From NCBI GenBank assembly GCA_938041455.1, contig CALITO010000004.1:62001-126000 (forward strand): 64,000 nt of DNA. Reading direction: 5' to 3'. Shown piece by piece: positions 28,982 through 36,667 of the stretch; the first letter of the stretch is position 1; every line of letters starts with the position of its first letter. Under the pieces are notes generated by a model. That model was given only the letters and a program-made list of their open reading frames with translations. It did no database searches and was not told where the DNA came from. The position numbers were made by a program, and so were the translations under genes. The stretch comes from an uncultured bacterium (GTDB lineage Bacteria > Armatimonadota > JACIXR01).

Positions 28982-29098
28982 ATGGCAACTTGGAAATGCA
29001 AGGAATGCGGTTTTGAGAAGGAAGCTCGTTGTAAGCCTAAGAGTTGTCCTAAGTGTGGAGCGAAGAATACATTTGAGAAAGTGGAGGTGAAAAAGTAA
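28982..29098 (+). CDS. RCKP-type rubredoxin-like zinc ribbon microprotein
   Basis: A 38-codon gene with AAGGAGGT upstream. It reads [19 protein letters not shown] followed by KSCPKCGA, giving paired CxxC motifs (C6/C9 and C22/C25) plus a Cys in the RCKP sequence. Small rubredoxin-like proteins with an ARCKP motif are a recognised family; a single zinc or iron ion is expected. It ends one base before the acpP start, so it is co-translated with acyl carrier protein. The function is unknown; a redox or zinc-structural role is inference. Confidence 0.82.
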
Positions 29099-29099
29099 T

Positions 29100-29336
29100 A
29101 TGGATATCGCGGAACGCGTGCGAAGCATAATTGCGGAAAGGTTGAATGTTAATCCGGAAGAGATCACGCTGGAAACTACCTTTGAAGACCTCGGGGCAGA
29201 TTCATTGGATGTAATGGACCTCATAATGGAGTTGGAACAGGAGTTCGATTTAGAGATACCGGATGAGGATGCGGAAAATATAAGGACGATAGAGGATACA
29301 ATAAATTACATTCGGTCAAGAATCCAAAGTCAATAA
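29100..29336 (+). CDS. acpP: Acyl carrier protein
   Basis: A 78-residue acidic four-helix protein that carries growing fatty-acyl chains on a phosphopantetheine arm. The attachment site is Ser35 in [11 protein letters not shown]. The start ATG lies one base after the upstream zinc-ribbon stop, and the stop overlaps the fabF start as TAATG. It needs CoA as the source of its prosthetic group, made by the pan and coaD genes in the same cluster. Confidence 0.98.
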
Positions 29337-30577
29337 TGCCCCCCAAAAGGGCGGTGATAACTGGGCTATCCCTAATAACGCCGCTTGGCGTAGGGGTAGA
29401 GGAGAATTGGCGTAAATTATTAAAGGGCGAGAGTGGTATCGGGCGAATAACATCCTTTGACCCTGGTGGTTTCTCTACTCAGATAGGGGGGGAAGTGAAA
29501 GACTTCAACTATGAGGATTATATGGATAAGAGGGAAGCGAGGCGTATGGACCGCTTCGCTCAATTCAGTGTAGCGGCAGCGAATATGGCGCTCACCGATG
29601 CAGGCCTCGACTTAAAGGAACTCAACCCTGAAGAGGTGGCAGTGATGATAGGGAGTGGTATAGGGGGTATATCAACTTGGGAAGAACAGCACAGGATTTT
29701 CCTTGAGAGAGGCCCTAATAGGGTGAGCCCATTTTTCATCCCTATGTTGATAGCGAATATGGGAGCCTCTAATACAGCCATAGCTTTGGGGGCAACCGGC
29801 CCCAATTATGCCATCGTAAGCGCCTGTGCCAGCGGAGCGCACTCCATTGGGGAAGCTCTTCGCCTAATAAGGGAAGGTAGAGCGAAGGTAGTAATCGCGG
29901 GAGGAAGCGAAGCTTCAATAACCCCCCTCACTTTAGCTGGTTTCTGTGCTATGAAAGCGCTTTCCACAAGGAATGAGGAACCGGAGAAAGCTTCTCGTCC
30001 ATTTGATGCGAAAAGGGATGGCTTCGTTCTTTCCGAGGGAGCGGGGGTAGTGATAGTTGAGGAATTGGAATTCGCTAAGAAAAGAGGAGCGAGGATCTAC
30101 GGAGAGTTAATAGGTTATGGAATGTCCTGCGATGCTTATCACATAACTGCTCCCGAACCTAATGGTAGGGGGGCCATCCTTTGTATGGAATCTGCCCTCC
30201 AAGACGCGGGCATAAGTAAGGAAGAAGTCGACTACATAAACGCGCATGGAACATCCACCCAGCTTAACGATATAACCGAGACCATAGCGATAAAAAGCGT
30301 CTTTGGGGAGAGAGCTTATAAAATCCCTATCTCTTCCACAAAATCTATGATAGGGCACCTATTAGGGGCCGCTGGAGCGGTAGAGTTCATAGTTTCCCTT
30401 CTCTGTATTAGGGATAACATCGTTCATCCCACAATAAATTACGAATATCCTGACCCTCAATGTGACCTCGATTATGTGCCCAATAAAGCAAGGGAAGCGA
30501 AGGTCAATGTTATTCTCTCCAATTCCTTTGGATTTGGGGGGCATAATGCCACATTAATAGCAAGGAGGTTTGAGTGA
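29336..30577 (+). CDS. fabF: 3-oxoacyl-ACP synthase II
   Basis: FabF elongates fatty acids by condensing acyl-ACP with malonyl-ACP. The catalytic triad is Cys164 (SACASGAH), His304 ([11 protein letters not shown]) and His341 ([10 protein letters not shown]), matching the E. coli positions within one residue. The 413-residue protein is complete, ending in [17 protein letters not shown]. The start is in a TAATG overlap with acpP. In many bacteria rnc follows; here a glycosidase gene begins inside the fabF stop. Confidence 0.97.
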
Positions 30578-32523
30578 AAATGGAACAGTTAAAACTATTA
30601 GGAAGGAAGGGAAAGCCCCTTTATATCCTCGGGGTAAATTATTGGTCCAGGGTAGCTGGTCCCCTAATGTGGCGTAAGTGGGACAGAGAGAAGGTTAGGG
30701 AAGAGATTCGGCAAATGAAAGCCCTGGGTATGAACACCTGCAGGTCCTTCCTTTATATGCCGGATTTTATGCCTCGTCCCGGGGAACTTGACGAGGAGAT
30801 GTTAAAGCGATTCGGAGAGTTTCTCAATATCTGCAAAGAGGAAGGAATCTATACTTTTCCCTCCTTCTTCGTTGGGCATATGTCGGGAGAAAACTGGGAT
30901 GTTCCCTGGCGAGAAGGAAGGAACTTCTATACCGACCCCTGGATGCTTCGCCAAGAGATAGCCTATGTTCAGGGGGTAGTTTCTCGCTTTAAGGACGAGG
31001 AAGCCATCCTCGGCTGGCTTCTCTCCAATGAGATACCTCTCTACGGGGGAAACACTACCCGAGATATAGGCTATATTTGGGTTAGAACAATATGCGAAGC
31101 GATTAGGGAAATAGACCCTAAACATCCTATCTCAACTGGAGACGGCTGTTGGTATTTGAGTGGGGATGATAATGGGTTTAACCTGGACGATTTATCAAGT
31201 ATATTGAACTTCTTCGGTCCTCATTCTTATCCCTCTGAGATAGATTCCCTCCGCCATTCCTTCATCCCTGGAATGCTTATGCAACTAGCGAGGACTTGGG
31301 GATTACCAGTCCTTCTTGAGGAATTTGGTTGTTCAAACGCCCATTGCAGTGAGGAACATCAAGCAGATTATTATCGCACTACCTTTCATTCCGTTCTGAT
31401 AAACGGGGGATGTGGTTGTTTAGGATGGTGCTATTCAGACTTTAATCTCCCCTATCAACGACCCTATTCCCACCACCCCTATGAAATGCTCTTTGGAGTA
31501 ACAAGGGCGGATAAATCCATTAAGCCGGTAGGGTACGAATTCAGCCGATTCTCCGCTATATTGGAAAAGATAGATTTAGAAAAATTACAGCTCCCTACAC
31601 CAAGCACCTACATAATTGTGCCCTCGTTCTTTTTCTATCCTTATCCTTTCTCCTGGTTGGATAAAGGAATGATGAACAGGCTGTTCCTACAGGCTTTCAC
31701 TACCGCAAAAATGGCGAAGATAACCACCGGCTTTTGGAGAGAACCTCCTATCATTTCTAATGTTCCCTATGATATAGAGCTCCATCAAGAAGTCCGGTTT
31801 CCTAAGGAAGCGAAGTTCCTTATTCTCCCCTCCTTCCCTATGCTCACTGCACCTACTTGGGAGGCACTTTATAAATTCGTGGAGGAGGGAGGCACTTTGT
31901 ACTTCTCCTATAGATATCAGCCCTGGATACACAACTTCCAACTCCTCACAGGTTGTAGTCACAAGTTGAGATATGGGATACCCGATATTCCACCTTCTCA
32001 ATTGACCATAAGTTTTGTTAAGGAGGTGCCCGGAATTGAGGCGGGGGAGATATTCAACTTCACAATTCAAGGGTCTCCTTTCCATACCGCTTTTTGCCCT
32101 GTGGAGGTCAAATCCGCAAAAGTTTTAGCCATAGATGAGGAGGGAAATCCTGCCCTCCTTGAGAACGAGATAGGCAAAGGGAGGGTTTTCTTCTCTCCCT
32201 TCCCTCTTGAACAATATGTGGGGGAGAAACCCGAAGGAAATAGGAGCGTTCCTCTTTGGAGGTTATACAAAGCGATGGCGAAGGAAGCGGGAGTAGAATT
32301 CCCCCTTGATTTCACCCATCCTTCGGTGGAAATGGAGACCCTAAAACAGGGAGACGATACCTTACTATGGCTGATCAATCACTCCTGGGAGGTAGTGGAG
32401 GGAACCCTGCTTGGTGATTTCGAGCGGGCCATTGACATAGAAAAGGGGGAAGAAATATGCTTTTCCGGAGAAAAGGATATAATATTACCTAAGAAGGAAA
32501 TAAAAATCCTGAGGATACTTTAA
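30574..32523 (+). CDS. Cytoplasmic clan GH-A glycosidase (GH5-like) with C-terminal extension
   Basis: A TIM barrel opens with [15 protein letters not shown] and has acid/base Glu153 in LLSNEIPL and the likely nucleophile Glu250 in LEEFGCS, an arrangement seen in GH5-type mannosidases and related families. From about residue 360 a Rossmann-like domain ([17 protein letters not shown], then [14 protein letters not shown]) resembles the trimerisation domain of beta-galactosidases, followed by a beta tail. No signal peptide is present, so it should act on imported oligosaccharides. It starts at GTG in a GTGA overlap with fabF (an ATG at 30580 is an alternative), tying a glycosidase to lipid-synthesis translation. 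Confidence 0.82.
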
Positions 32524-32547
32524 ACAAGGAAAAGGGGTGAATTAAAA

Positions 32548-33276
32548 ATGTTAGAATGTAAGTTTTGTGGAGCTGAAAATGAAGAAACAAGGGAGGCGTG
32601 TTGGAACTGTTTCGCCCCCTTGAAGGGTGAAGCTGCGGCTGAGATGAAGGCGCGAGTAGCAAAAATAAGAGAGGCGGTGCCACCGGGGGAGGTGCCCATA
32701 ACGGTAGCGCGCCGCAGGCAACTTTCCCTGGGTTGGCTCGTGGGCATTGTCCTCGTCCTTCTTATAGGTGGAGGTGGATTTTTCTTCTATACAAAGATTT
32801 TCCAAGAGAAACCCCAGCAGGTGGCTAAAGAATTCCTGAATGCCTTCGTGCAAGGGTTGGCTAACCAAGATTTATCCCCGATAAAACCCTATATAGACCC
32901 CGTTGATTCAGCAACCCTACCCACAACGAAGGAGGAACTCAAAGAGAAGGTGATGGGTTACCTTCGCTCAATGGGCACTGCTCTTCCTGAGAAGATAGGG
33001 GGAATGGATATTTTGGACCTGATAAGTTCTCTCAAACCAGCTGTGCAATCCGTGAACACTAACATAGAAAGCACCTCTTTTAGTGAGGCAAAGGTGAAGG
33101 TCCAACTCTCCCTAACTGCTAAGGGGGCTATCCCTCCCCTGGTGGGTCTGCCTCCTTCCTTGCAAGGCTCGACCACTCTCACTTTGGTAAGGAAGGGCCT
33201 TGATTGGAAAGTTAGTTTAAGTAAAACTTTCCCTTCCCCAACTGTGCCAGCAGTTAATATGCCTGTTCCCAAATGA
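32548..33276 (+). CDS. Zinc-ribbon membrane-anchored protein of unknown function
   Basis: A 242-residue protein with an N-terminal zinc ribbon (CKFCGAENEETREACWNC, about residues 4-21), a linker, one membrane helix (LGWLVGIVLVLLIGGGGFFFY, about residues 60-82) and an extracytoplasmic domain of mixed alpha/beta character. That domain begins QVAKEFLNAFVQGLANQDL, resembling the NTF2-like/DUF4878 lipoprotein type. The zinc ribbon would face the cytoplasm. It lies between the two cytoplasmic glycosidases, 24 nt after the first and 41 nt before the second. A sensor or scaffold is possible; nothing indicates a reaction. Confidence 0.72.
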   Translation: MLECKFCGAENEETREACWNCFAPLKGEAAAEMKARVAKIREAVPPGEVPITVARRRQLSLGWLVGIVLVLLIGGGGFFFYTKIFQEKPQQVAKEFLNAFVQGLANQDLSPIKPYIDPVDSATLPTTKEELKEKVMGYLRSMGTALPEKIGGMDILDLISSLKPAVQSVNTNIESTSFSEAKVKVQLSLTAKGAIPPLVGLPPSLQGSTTLTLVRKGLDWKVSLSKTFPSPTVPAVNMPVPK

Positions 33277-33317
33277 ACAATGTTTAAAACGACACACCAA
33301 AAAGGAGGGTTTAAAGA

Positions 33318-35963
33318 ATGAAGAAATGGATTGCTTTGCTCGTTTCCCATACTCATTGGGATAGAGAATGGTATCGGACATATCAGGGCTTCAGGCGGTT
33401 ACTCGTTAGATTAACAGACCGATTGCTTTCCATTATGGAAAGCAATCCACAATATAAGTATTTCGTATTTGATGGTCAAACGATAGTCCTGGAGGATTAC
33501 CTGGAAATCCGCCCCGAAAACGAGGAGAGAATAAGGAAGCTCGTCCAGGAGGGAAGGCTGCATATCGGTCCATGGTATGTGCTTCCCGATGAATTTCTCG
33601 TCTCCGGAGAATCCCTGGTAAGGAATCTTCTTATAGGGCATTTGATAGGTGAGAAATTTGGAAGAGTTATGAAGGTGGGTTACCTACCTGACCCATTCGG
33701 TCATATAGCGCAGATGCCCCAAATCCTTCAAGGATTTGGTATAAAATCCTTTATATTCCACAGGGGATTAGGTGACGAATGGGAAGGTCTTAATACGGAG
33801 TTTTGGTGGGAAGGCTTGGATGGTTCTAAAGTGCTTGCCATTTACCAGATGCACGGCTATTGCAACGCAATGGGTTTGGGTTACGCCCAGGTGTTTGCTG
33901 AGCCGGGAACTGTCCAAGCGGACTTGGACAATGCGGTGGAGCGGATAAAAAGAGAGGTAGCGGATTTGAGCAGATATGCTTCCACGCGCTATATACTCCT
34001 GAATAACGGTTGTGACCATCTGGAACCTCAGCCTGAACTACCTGATATCATAAATTACGCAAATAGCAAACTTGAGGATGTGGAAGTCGTGCATTCCACC
34101 TTTGAAGAATTAGTGGAGAAGATACTGGCTGAGAATCCCAAACTCGGCACTATAAAGGGCGAACTTCATTGGGGGCGATATCACCCCCTTCTCCTCGGCG
34201 TCTTCTCCACCCGCCTATATCTTAAAAAAGAGAACTTCCTAACTCAGCGAGCTTTGGAGAAATATACTGAGCCAGTTTGTTCCCTTGCCTGGCTGAAAGG
34301 CAAACCTTATGAGGGAGCTTTCCTTCTTAAAGCTTGGAAATATCTCGTCTCCAATCATCCTCATGACTCTATCTGTGGATGCTCAATAGACGAAGTGCAT
34401 AGAGATATGCTCCCCCGCTTTGCCGCTGCACGTCAGATAGCGGAGACCCACTTTGAGGAATCGGCAAACTACCTGGCGGGACTAATAAATATGAAGAAAG
34501 AAGGGGCAAGGGGAGCAGTGGTTGTCTTCAATCCCCATAGTTGGGAGGTTACAGATGTAGCGAAAGCACATATCGAATTCCCCATCCCTCCCGATCAAAC
34601 CATTCATAATATCCTTGTGCGCGACGAAACCGGCAGAATTGTCATAAGTCAACTTACAAATGTCAAGATTTCCTCTCCCCGCTTTCCCCATTCCCTTAAT
34701 CAATTGGTATGGGAAGGAGATATCCTTATTTCTGCAGAAAACATTCCCCCCTTGGGTTACAGAACTTATTACCTGGAAGAGGTGCGAGAGCCGAGGAAAC
34801 TTTCGTCCCTCTTAGAGGCTACATCCACAAGCCTGGAAAATGCCTTCCTAAAAGTGGAGGTTAATCCCAACGGCACTATAGATATCACCGATAAGAGAAG
34901 CGGGCAGGTCTATAAGGGATGCAATCTCTTTGAGGATACAGAGGATATAGGCGATGAATACAATTACTCACCCGCGGTAAATTCTGAAACCATAACTTCC
35001 GCAGGAGCCAGTGCTTTAATATCTCTTTTGGAGAGGGGGCCTGTATCCGCCACCATAAAGGTAGAACTGAATCTCAGTTTGCCGAAAGGTATAGACGAAG
35101 GACGAACCTCCCGCTCCAGAGAGTTGGTTTCCTATCCCATAACCTCATATATCACCCTTTATGCCGGCATCCCTCGGGTGGATATAGAAACGGAGATAGA
35201 CAATCGGGTTAAGGACCATCGCTTACGAGTTCACTTCCCCACTAATCTTTATGCTAACGAGTGCATAGCGGATGCCCAATTTGGTGTCTTGCGGAGGAGA
35301 ATCCAGTTACCCAAGGGAGAGGGTTGGATAGAGAAACCGGTTGGCACTAAAGCAATGCAGTCATTTGTCGCGGTTGAGAGTAGAGGTTTAGGGCTATGCG
35401 TTGTTGCCGAGGGCCTACCTGAGTACGAGGCAATAGATACTCCAAATGGTGTAGACTTAGCGATTACCCTGCTTCGCAGCGTTGGTTGGCTATCCCGTGG
35501 CGATTTGCTGACCCGACCTTATAACGCTGGCCCACAATACCCCGCTCCCGAAGCCCAGTGCCTAGGTAAACAAAAGGTCCGCTATGCGGTTATCCCCTTT
35601 ATCAATGCCTTTGAAGAAGCTAAACCCTGGATCCTTGCCTATCAGTTTATCGCTCCCTTGAGGTCGGTGCCTGCTTTACCCCATCAAGGTTCTCTTCCCG
35701 GTGAATTTTCACTCCTCAAGATAGAACCGCGGGAACTTATCCTAAGTGCTCTCAAGAAAGCCGAGAAGGAAGATGCTCTCGTGGTTCGCTTCTATAACAT
35801 TGCCCCTTATGAAGTGGATGGCAATATTACCCTAACTGAAATGCCAAAGAGAGTGGTTTTGGCTAATCTTCTTGAAGAGGATGTAGTAGAACTCAACGCC
35901 AACAAACAGCTGGAGGTGAAAGTTAAGCCATTCCAAATAATAACCCTAAAGCTGTTCTTCTAA
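33318..35963 (+). CDS. Alpha-mannosidase, GH38
   Basis: The 881-residue protein begins with the GH38 zinc-site motif LVSHTHWDREWY. Asp125 in YLPDPFGHIAQMPQIL is the expected nucleophile and zinc ligand, and HDSICGCSIDEVH supplies the later His. The middle helical domain and long beta-sandwich C-terminus are typical. The enzyme releases alpha-linked mannose (or related sugars such as mannosylglycerate) in the cytoplasm; there is no signal peptide. AAAGGAGGG precedes ATG. Its TAA stop shares a base with an ATT that is the best candidate start for rnc. Confidence 0.95.
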   Translation: MKKWIALLVSHTHWDREWYRTYQGFRRLLVRLTDRLLSIMESNPQYKYFVFDGQTIVLEDYLEIRPENEERIRKLVQEGRLHIGPWYVLPDEFLVSGESLVRNLLIGHLIGEKFGRVMKVGYLPDPFGHIAQMPQILQGFGIKSFIFHRGLGDEWEGLNTEFWWEGLDGSKVLAIYQMHGYCNAMGLGYAQVFAEPGTVQADLDNAVERIKREVADLSRYASTRYILLNNGCDHLEPQPELPDIINYANSKLEDVEVVHSTFEELVEKILAENPKLGTIKGELHWGRYHPLLLGVFSTRLYLKKENFLTQRALEKYTEPVCSLAWLKGKPYEGAFLLKAWKYLVSNHPHDSICGCSIDEVHRDMLPRFAAARQIAETHFEESANYLAGLINMKKEGARGAVVVFNPHSWEVTDVAKAHIEFPIPPDQTIHNILVRDETGRIVISQLTNVKISSPRFPHSLNQLVWEGDILISAENIPPLGYRTYYLEEVREPRKLSSLLEATSTSLENAFLKVEVNPNGTIDITDKRSGQVYKGCNLFEDTEDIGDEYNYSPAVNSETITSAGASALISLLERGPVSATIKVELNLSLPKGIDEGRTSRSRELVSYPITSYITLYAGIPRVDIETEIDNRVKDHRLRVHFPTNLYANECIADAQFGVLRRRIQLPKGEGWIEKPVGTKAMQSFVAVESRGLGLCVVAEGLPEYEAIDTPNGVDLAITLLRSVGWLSRGDLLTRPYNAGPQYPAPEAQCLGKQKVRYAVIPFINAFEEAKPWILAYQFIAPLRSVPALPHQGSLPGEFSLLKIEPRELILSALKKAEKEDALVVRFYNIAPYEVDGNITLTEMPKRVVLANLLEEDVVELNANKQLEVKVKPFQIITLKLFF

Positions 35964-36667
35964 TTGAAGAAATAGGGATTCCACCCCGCCATCCCCTGAT
36001 AAAACAAGCTCTTACACATCCCTCTCTGAAACAGGAGGGGAAAGAGGAGTCTTATGAGCGTTTGGAGTTCCTTGGGGATGCCATCTTGGGGGCGATAATG
36101 GCCGAATATCTTTACAAGAGATATCCTTATTTTGACAGCGGGAGACTTTCCCGAGCCAAATCTAATTTTGTCAGTGAGGAATGCCTTGCACAAGTAGCAC
36201 GGAACCTACAATTAGGAGCTCTTATCCAGATGGGAAAAGGGGAGGAGAAAGGAGGGGGGAGAGATAAACCCTCCGTTTTATCCGATGCCCTGGAAGCTTT
36301 GATTGGAGCCATATATCTTCTCGGGGGCTGGAGGAAAGTGAGAAAGTTTGTTAGGAGGGCTTTCGGAGCGGTTTCCCAATTAAAAGGGAATGCTTTCCTC
36401 AAAGATTATAAGAGCCTTTTACAAGAATACCTTCAAGCCCAGGGGAAACCCTTGCCCCATTACCTATTGGTGAAGACAGAGGGTTCCCCCCACGAGAGAA
36501 CTTTCACCGTGCAGGTTAGCATAGAGGGGGAAGTATATGGGGAAGGAAAGGGGAAGACGAAGAAAGAAGCCAGTGTGATAGCGGCGAAGGAAGCTCTGGA
36601 AAAGCTCGGTGTAGCATATAACAACGATGAACGAGGAACTGGAGTTTCTCCTTTATTCAAAAAATAG
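35963..36667 (+). CDS. rnc: Ribonuclease III with a non-canonical start
   Basis: RNase III cuts double-stranded RNA, for example in rRNA maturation. From 35963 the frame encodes 234 residues: IEEIGIPPRHPLIKQALTHP, the signature ERLEFLGD (Glu32, Glu35, Asp39), the second acidic cluster SDALEALIGAIYL, and a C-terminal double-stranded-RNA-binding domain (DYKSLLQEYLQAQGK to the end). No ATG, GTG or TTG occurs in frame between the upstream stop at 35924 and TTG 36062. That TTG lies inside the signature and would remove the first helix and Glu32. The best fit is ATT at 35963 in a TAATT overlap with the mannosidase stop, with no visible Shine-Dalgarno. The gene overlaps the next by 41 nt. The function call is certain; the start is not. 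Confidence 0.9.
   Translation: MEEIGIPPRHPLIKQALTHPSLKQEGKEESYERLEFLGDAILGAIMAEYLYKRYPYFDSGRLSRAKSNFVSEECLAQVARNLQLGALIQMGKGEEKGGGRDKPSVLSDALEALIGAIYLLGGWRKVRKFVRRAFGAVSQLKGNAFLKDYKSLLQEYLQAQGKPLPHYLLVKTEGSPHERTFTVQVSIEGEVYGEGKGKTKKEASVIAAKEALEKLGVAYNNDERGTGVSPLFKK

Follow-up and report, generated by a model that had tools for sequence, protein, structure and literature searches.

Evidence for a near-cognate AUU/AUA start codon of the RNase III gene within the end of an alpha-mannosidase gene in a genus of Armatimonadota

The initiator tRNA can start translation at AUU or AUA codons behind a Shine-Dalgarno (SD) sequence, at a reduced rate and under discrimination by IF3. The E. coli gene infC starts at AUU and is autoregulated through IF3. 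In S. aureus, infC starts at AUA, and two further genes with extended SDs, cvfC1 (AUU) and ccpN (AUA), are expressed at about 10% of the AUG level, with ccpN reaching up to 30% in rich medium (PMC13009471). E. coli pcnB, as cited in the same paper (PMC13009471), has an AUU start. Confirmed rare starts in Listeria are ATT in infC and ATC in rnhC, and rare or flexible starts occur in fewer than 0.3% of the core genes (PMC13068326). In 36 groups of genomes, AUG has very rarely been replaced by AUU (PMC5622118).

Here we analysed a stretch of 64,000 nucleotides (the window) from the draft genome of an uncultured bacterium (G000, 2.2 Mb in 50 contigs), together with the genomes of both other species of its genus (G001 and G002, the sisters). 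Judged from sequence, the RNase III gene rnc in the window is very probably a conserved AUU/AUA-start gene of the infC type, which probably sets a low, IF3-sensitive level of synthesis. It resembles infC, including the infC of the genus itself, in its near-cognate AUU/AUA codon, its strong SD and its conservation in relatives; unlike infC, its proposed start lies within the preceding gene, and RNase III is not known to have any connection with start-codon choice. With cvfC1, ccpN and pcnB it shares a conserved non-canonical start and an extended SD, which go with low expression in those genes. However, the starts of those genes were measured whereas that of rnc is read from the DNA, and pinning of a start by an overlapping gene is not shown for them.

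The rnc frame and its canonical codons

The product of rnc is a full RNase III, which scored 239.1 bits against TIGR02191 (curated cut-off 166.25), matched solved homologues (best, 1o0w) and has the catalytic signature ERLEFLGD in the alignment. One RNase III was found in the genome. The frame runs from 35927 to 36667 on the forward strand, with a TAA (35924-35926) immediately 5' of it and a TAG (36665-36667) at its end. The features of the locus, in window coordinates, are as follows.

33318-35963, forward strand: GH38 alpha-mannosidase gene (open reading frame; Pfam GH38 N, middle, C and C2 domains)
35908-35931, forward strand: invariant 24-nt block AGCTGGAGGTGAAAGTTAAGCCAT, identical in the three species and ending on the AT of the proposed start codon
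35912-35919, forward strand: putative rnc SD GGAGGTGA (complementarity to the 16S 3' end), invariant in the three species
35930-35932, forward strand: proposed rnc start codon ATT, 42 codons before ERLEFLGD in the three-species alignment
35930-36667, forward strand: rnc (RNase III), read from the proposed start as 245 codons and a stop codon (TIGR02191; solved homologues)
35948-35971, forward strand: codons of RNase III helix 1 (KAVLLIEE) in the AlphaFold2 model
35961-35965, forward strand: TAATT, the mannosidase stop overlapping ATT 35963; TAATA in both sisters
36062-36064, forward strand: TTG, first in-frame canonical start codon of rnc; CTT in G002 and thus unconserved

The first-pass annotation had reported that rnc has no usable ATG, GTG or TTG before the TTG at 36062 and that this TTG falls inside ERLEFLGD, and both statements are borne out by the sequence. 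Because NTG makes up 5.8% of the codons inside genes, 45 codons without a canonical codon would occur with P of about 0.07. Such a stretch is not very improbable alone, and the weight of the observation comes from its conservation in relatives. The RNase III proteins of G001 and G002 are 68-72% identical to that of our genome, and in both sisters the overlap between the mannosidase gene and rnc is arranged alike and free of indels, with the upstream TAA and the stop in the same positions. Both also lack a usable canonical rnc start, their first canonical codon being an unconserved TTG 15 codons (G002) or 20 codons (G001) before ERLEFLGD. This alignment of rnc and its upstream region across relatives, which the first-pass annotation had proposed as a check, revealed no ATG and no indel that would restore a start. 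Elsewhere in the phylum, most readable rnc genes start canonically, 36 to 45 codons before ERLEFLGD. Although our genome is a 50-contig draft, loss of the start through a sequencing or assembly error is as good as excluded, since the overlap and the missing start recur, gap-free and in the same arrangement, in three separate assemblies whose proteins are about 70% identical.

The genes fabF and rnc are frequently adjacent in bacteria. In the window (30574-35963), an open reading frame of 649 amino acids, another of 242 amino acids and the GH38 mannosidase gene stand between them, and the mannosidase gene lies directly 5' of rnc in both sisters too. Insertion of these three genes may have removed the original rnc start.

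A putative ribosome-binding site and start in the mannosidase gene

The last codons of the mannosidase gene contain the rnc ribosome-binding site and the proposed start. Where no SD had been noticed at first, a perfect extended one, GGAGGTGA, precedes the ATT at 35930. It pairs along its whole length with the 16S 3' end GGATCACCTCC, and likewise with the 16S 3' end read from our own genome and from G001, GGATCACCTCCTTTCT. The codon at 35930 is ATT in our genome, ATA in G001 and ATT in G002. At 42 codons before ERLEFLGD, it would place the N-terminus where most relatives in the phylum have theirs. It lies 10 nt past GGAGGTGA and 13 nt past GGAGG, the latter spacing being in the tail of the genome's own distribution (13-15 nt in 11 of 197 genes). 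Another long spacing is seen at acpP in the same cluster, where GGAGG is 12 nt 5' of the ATG (window 29083-29102).

Apart from the 24-nt block AGCTGGAGGTGAAAGTTAAGCCAT, the 2,649-nt alignment of the three mannosidase genes has no stretch of 12 nt or longer that is invariant. At the codon level, the 883 mannosidase columns hold a single run of at least four identical codons, CTG GAG GTG AAA GTT AAG CCA, which coincides exactly with the rnc ribosome-binding site, while the codon identity at sites with an identical amino acid in all three species is 22.7%. In a permutation, an identical-codon run of this kind anywhere in the mannosidase gene had a P of about 0.007. Because AGCTGGAGGTGAAAGTTAAGCCAT also codes for mannosidase, its conservation could in part be due to something else.

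The predicted protein structure was consistent with the same start. In the AlphaFold2 model, helix 1 spans residues 7-14 counted from 35930, with a mean pLDDT of 84 for the model and 88 for the block of residues 11-20, and a start at 35930 keeps this helix whole. Between 35951 and 35962, all differences among the three species are synonymous for rnc and nonsynonymous for mannosidase, and it appears that the rnc frame is protein-constrained upstream of 35963; between 35930 and 35950, the pattern is mostly the reverse, with differences that are synonymous for mannosidase and change rnc. This reading-frame test involves about three substitutions and is taken as supporting only.

Taken together, the data make it likely that rnc is translated from the near-cognate ATT at 35930, behind GGAGGTGA, by the ordinary initiator tRNA. 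The SD in the terminal part of the mannosidase gene would hold the ribosome at this codon (ATA in one sister), the ordinary initiator tRNA would read ATT or ATA, presumably with fMet, and initiation that is weak and checked by IF3 would keep the level of RNase III low. The long spacing and the rare start both point to modest expression of rnc. The first-pass annotation had likened the start to the ATT of infC. The likeness holds in that the start is non-canonical and kept in relatives, and the infC genes of the same organisms are themselves without a canonical start; it does not extend to the codon that had been chosen, ATT 35963.

The overlap with the mannosidase gene offers a reason for the absence of ATG. 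The start codon consists of an A followed by the first two bases of the overlapping mannosidase codon, so that a Phe codon TTC yields an ATT start and a Tyr codon TAT yields an ATA start. The residue at this position is aromatic (F, Y or W; in PF, PY, PW or AW) in most readable GH38 proteins. Because any NTG start would demand Cys or Trp (or a stop) in the mannosidase, the overlap helps to freeze the rare rnc start. The pinning is not absolute, since Trp occurs at this position in other GH38 genes, and selection for a low level of RNase III may also help to keep ATT or ATA.

Other ways of making RNase III from this locus

The first-pass annotation had favoured ATT 35963 as the start, reached by ribosomes that terminate at the overlapping mannosidase stop and reinitiate there without an SD. 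The TAATT it described is present, all three species have a stop overlapping an ATT or ATA codon in this position, and fabF in the same cluster does begin at a TAATG overlap, as had been noted. Nevertheless, we consider reinitiation at 35963 quite unlikely. No SD is found nearby, and the codon lies 11 codons downstream of 35930, at -31 relative to ERLEFLGD where most relatives start at -36 to -45. The N-terminus from 35963, which had been regarded as normal, is cut within helix 1 and retains three residues of that helix in the AlphaFold2 model. Furthermore, the rnc frame seems constrained just 5' of this codon, and the invariant SD block would be left unexplained.

The rnc frame is -1 relative to that of mannosidase, and all three species share an A_AAG tetramer, which would be compatible with -1 slippage near CTA AAG to produce a fusion of mannosidase and RNase III. 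This is very improbable, because the site reads C CTA AAG or A TTA AAG and no X XXY YYZ heptamer is present, the RNA fold over 35890-35990 appears unremarkable (z of -1.3), and the conserved SD is about 30 nt upstream, beyond the distance at which an SD stimulates slippage. Nor was a conserved RNA hairpin or an RNase III autoregulatory stem found near the start, where the single-sequence folds of the three species disagree. There is hardly more chance that a shorter RNase III is made from a downstream canonical codon (TTG 36062, or the other TTGs in the sisters): TTG starts are common in our genome (43 of 197 genes), but the positions of these TTGs differ among the species, and the product would lack the N-terminal helices, which are conserved, as well as part of the catalytic signature. 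An initiation at ATT 35930 behind GGAGGTGA accounts best for the locus.

Rare starts elsewhere in the genus

We screened 1.13 Mb of our genome against 1.48 Mb of G001, about half of each genome, which gave 581 orthologue-like pairs; many matches that were overlaps with upstream genes, antisense frames or tRNA shadows were discarded by eye. Five of the 581 pairs (rnc, infC, pyrE, ftsA and pdp) had no canonical start in both genomes, and G002 agrees for all five. The frames outside the window, together with a sixth case, are as follows.

G000:C35 30755-31306, reverse strand: infC, proposed start ATA, with a rare start in both sisters too
G000:C2 98015-98602, forward strand: pyrE, proposed start ATA (GGAGG- or GGGGG-N11-ATA), kept in both sisters
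G000:C2 117159-118445, forward strand: ftsA, proposed start CTG (GGAGG-N7-CTG), kept in both sisters
G000:C2 53174-54433, reverse strand: pdp, proposed start CTG with the SD 9 nt away, kept in both sisters
G000:C3 49926-50321, reverse strand: 131-codon open reading frame of no Pfam family, sixth rare-start case, with homologues in both sisters

The proposed infC start is ATA in our genome, ATT in G001 and ATA in G002, with GGAGG 10-11 nt upstream. In ftsA of G002 an ATG occurs 1 nt past the SD, too close for a likely start. The 131-codon frame has GGGAGGTGA followed by ATT ATC ATA and runs for 53 codons without a canonical start; its homologues in the sisters have similar ATT or ATA codons, with a GTG overlapping the SD in G001. 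As in Listeria, the rare starts of each genome are confined to a few conserved genes, an RNase gene among them. The genes here are others (rnc, pyrE, ftsA, pdp), and five of 581 pairs stands against less than 0.3% of core genes there, two figures that were obtained differently.

A three-codon mini-ORF lies between the SD and the ATA in infC of our genome and G002 (L078, L079) and in pyrE of G002 and G001 (L249, L248), not in all cases. It consists of ATG or TTG, two codons and then a TAA or TAG that overlaps the ATA. Reinitiation from this mini-ORF might occur at infC and pyrE; since the stop arises automatically when A or G follows ATA, the arrangement may be due to chance.

No unusual initiator tRNA was found in the approximately half of each genome that was searched, which contained the ordinary CAT initiator with its 1-72 mismatch. 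The IF3 proteins of the genus (L077-L079) have Glu at a first site (KIREFL) and Lys at a second, which we take to be the sites of E. coli R116 and R147, linked to 30S binding. An altered IF3 as the cause of the rare starts is a weak lead because the first site is likewise Glu in a relative in the phylum (L242). It is rather doubtful that infC, rnc, ftsA, pyrE, pdp and the small open reading frame form a coordinated AUU/AUA/CUG set tuned by the level of IF3 or by start-codon stringency; if they do, ribosome maturation, division and pyrimidine supply would be tuned together.

On this evidence, the genus appears to have at least five rare-start genes. Gene callers that are limited to ATG, GTG and TTG would truncate its RNase III, IF3, PyrE, FtsA and pyrimidine-nucleoside phosphorylase. 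The screen used here, which combines a conserved N-terminus, the absence of NTG and an invariant SD block, is applicable to any genus with a few genomes. RNase III would become one more of the few bacterial genes in which an AUU/AUA start is conserved. The five pairs among 581 suggest that a lineage can carry rare starts as a lasting trait, and not as isolated curiosities.
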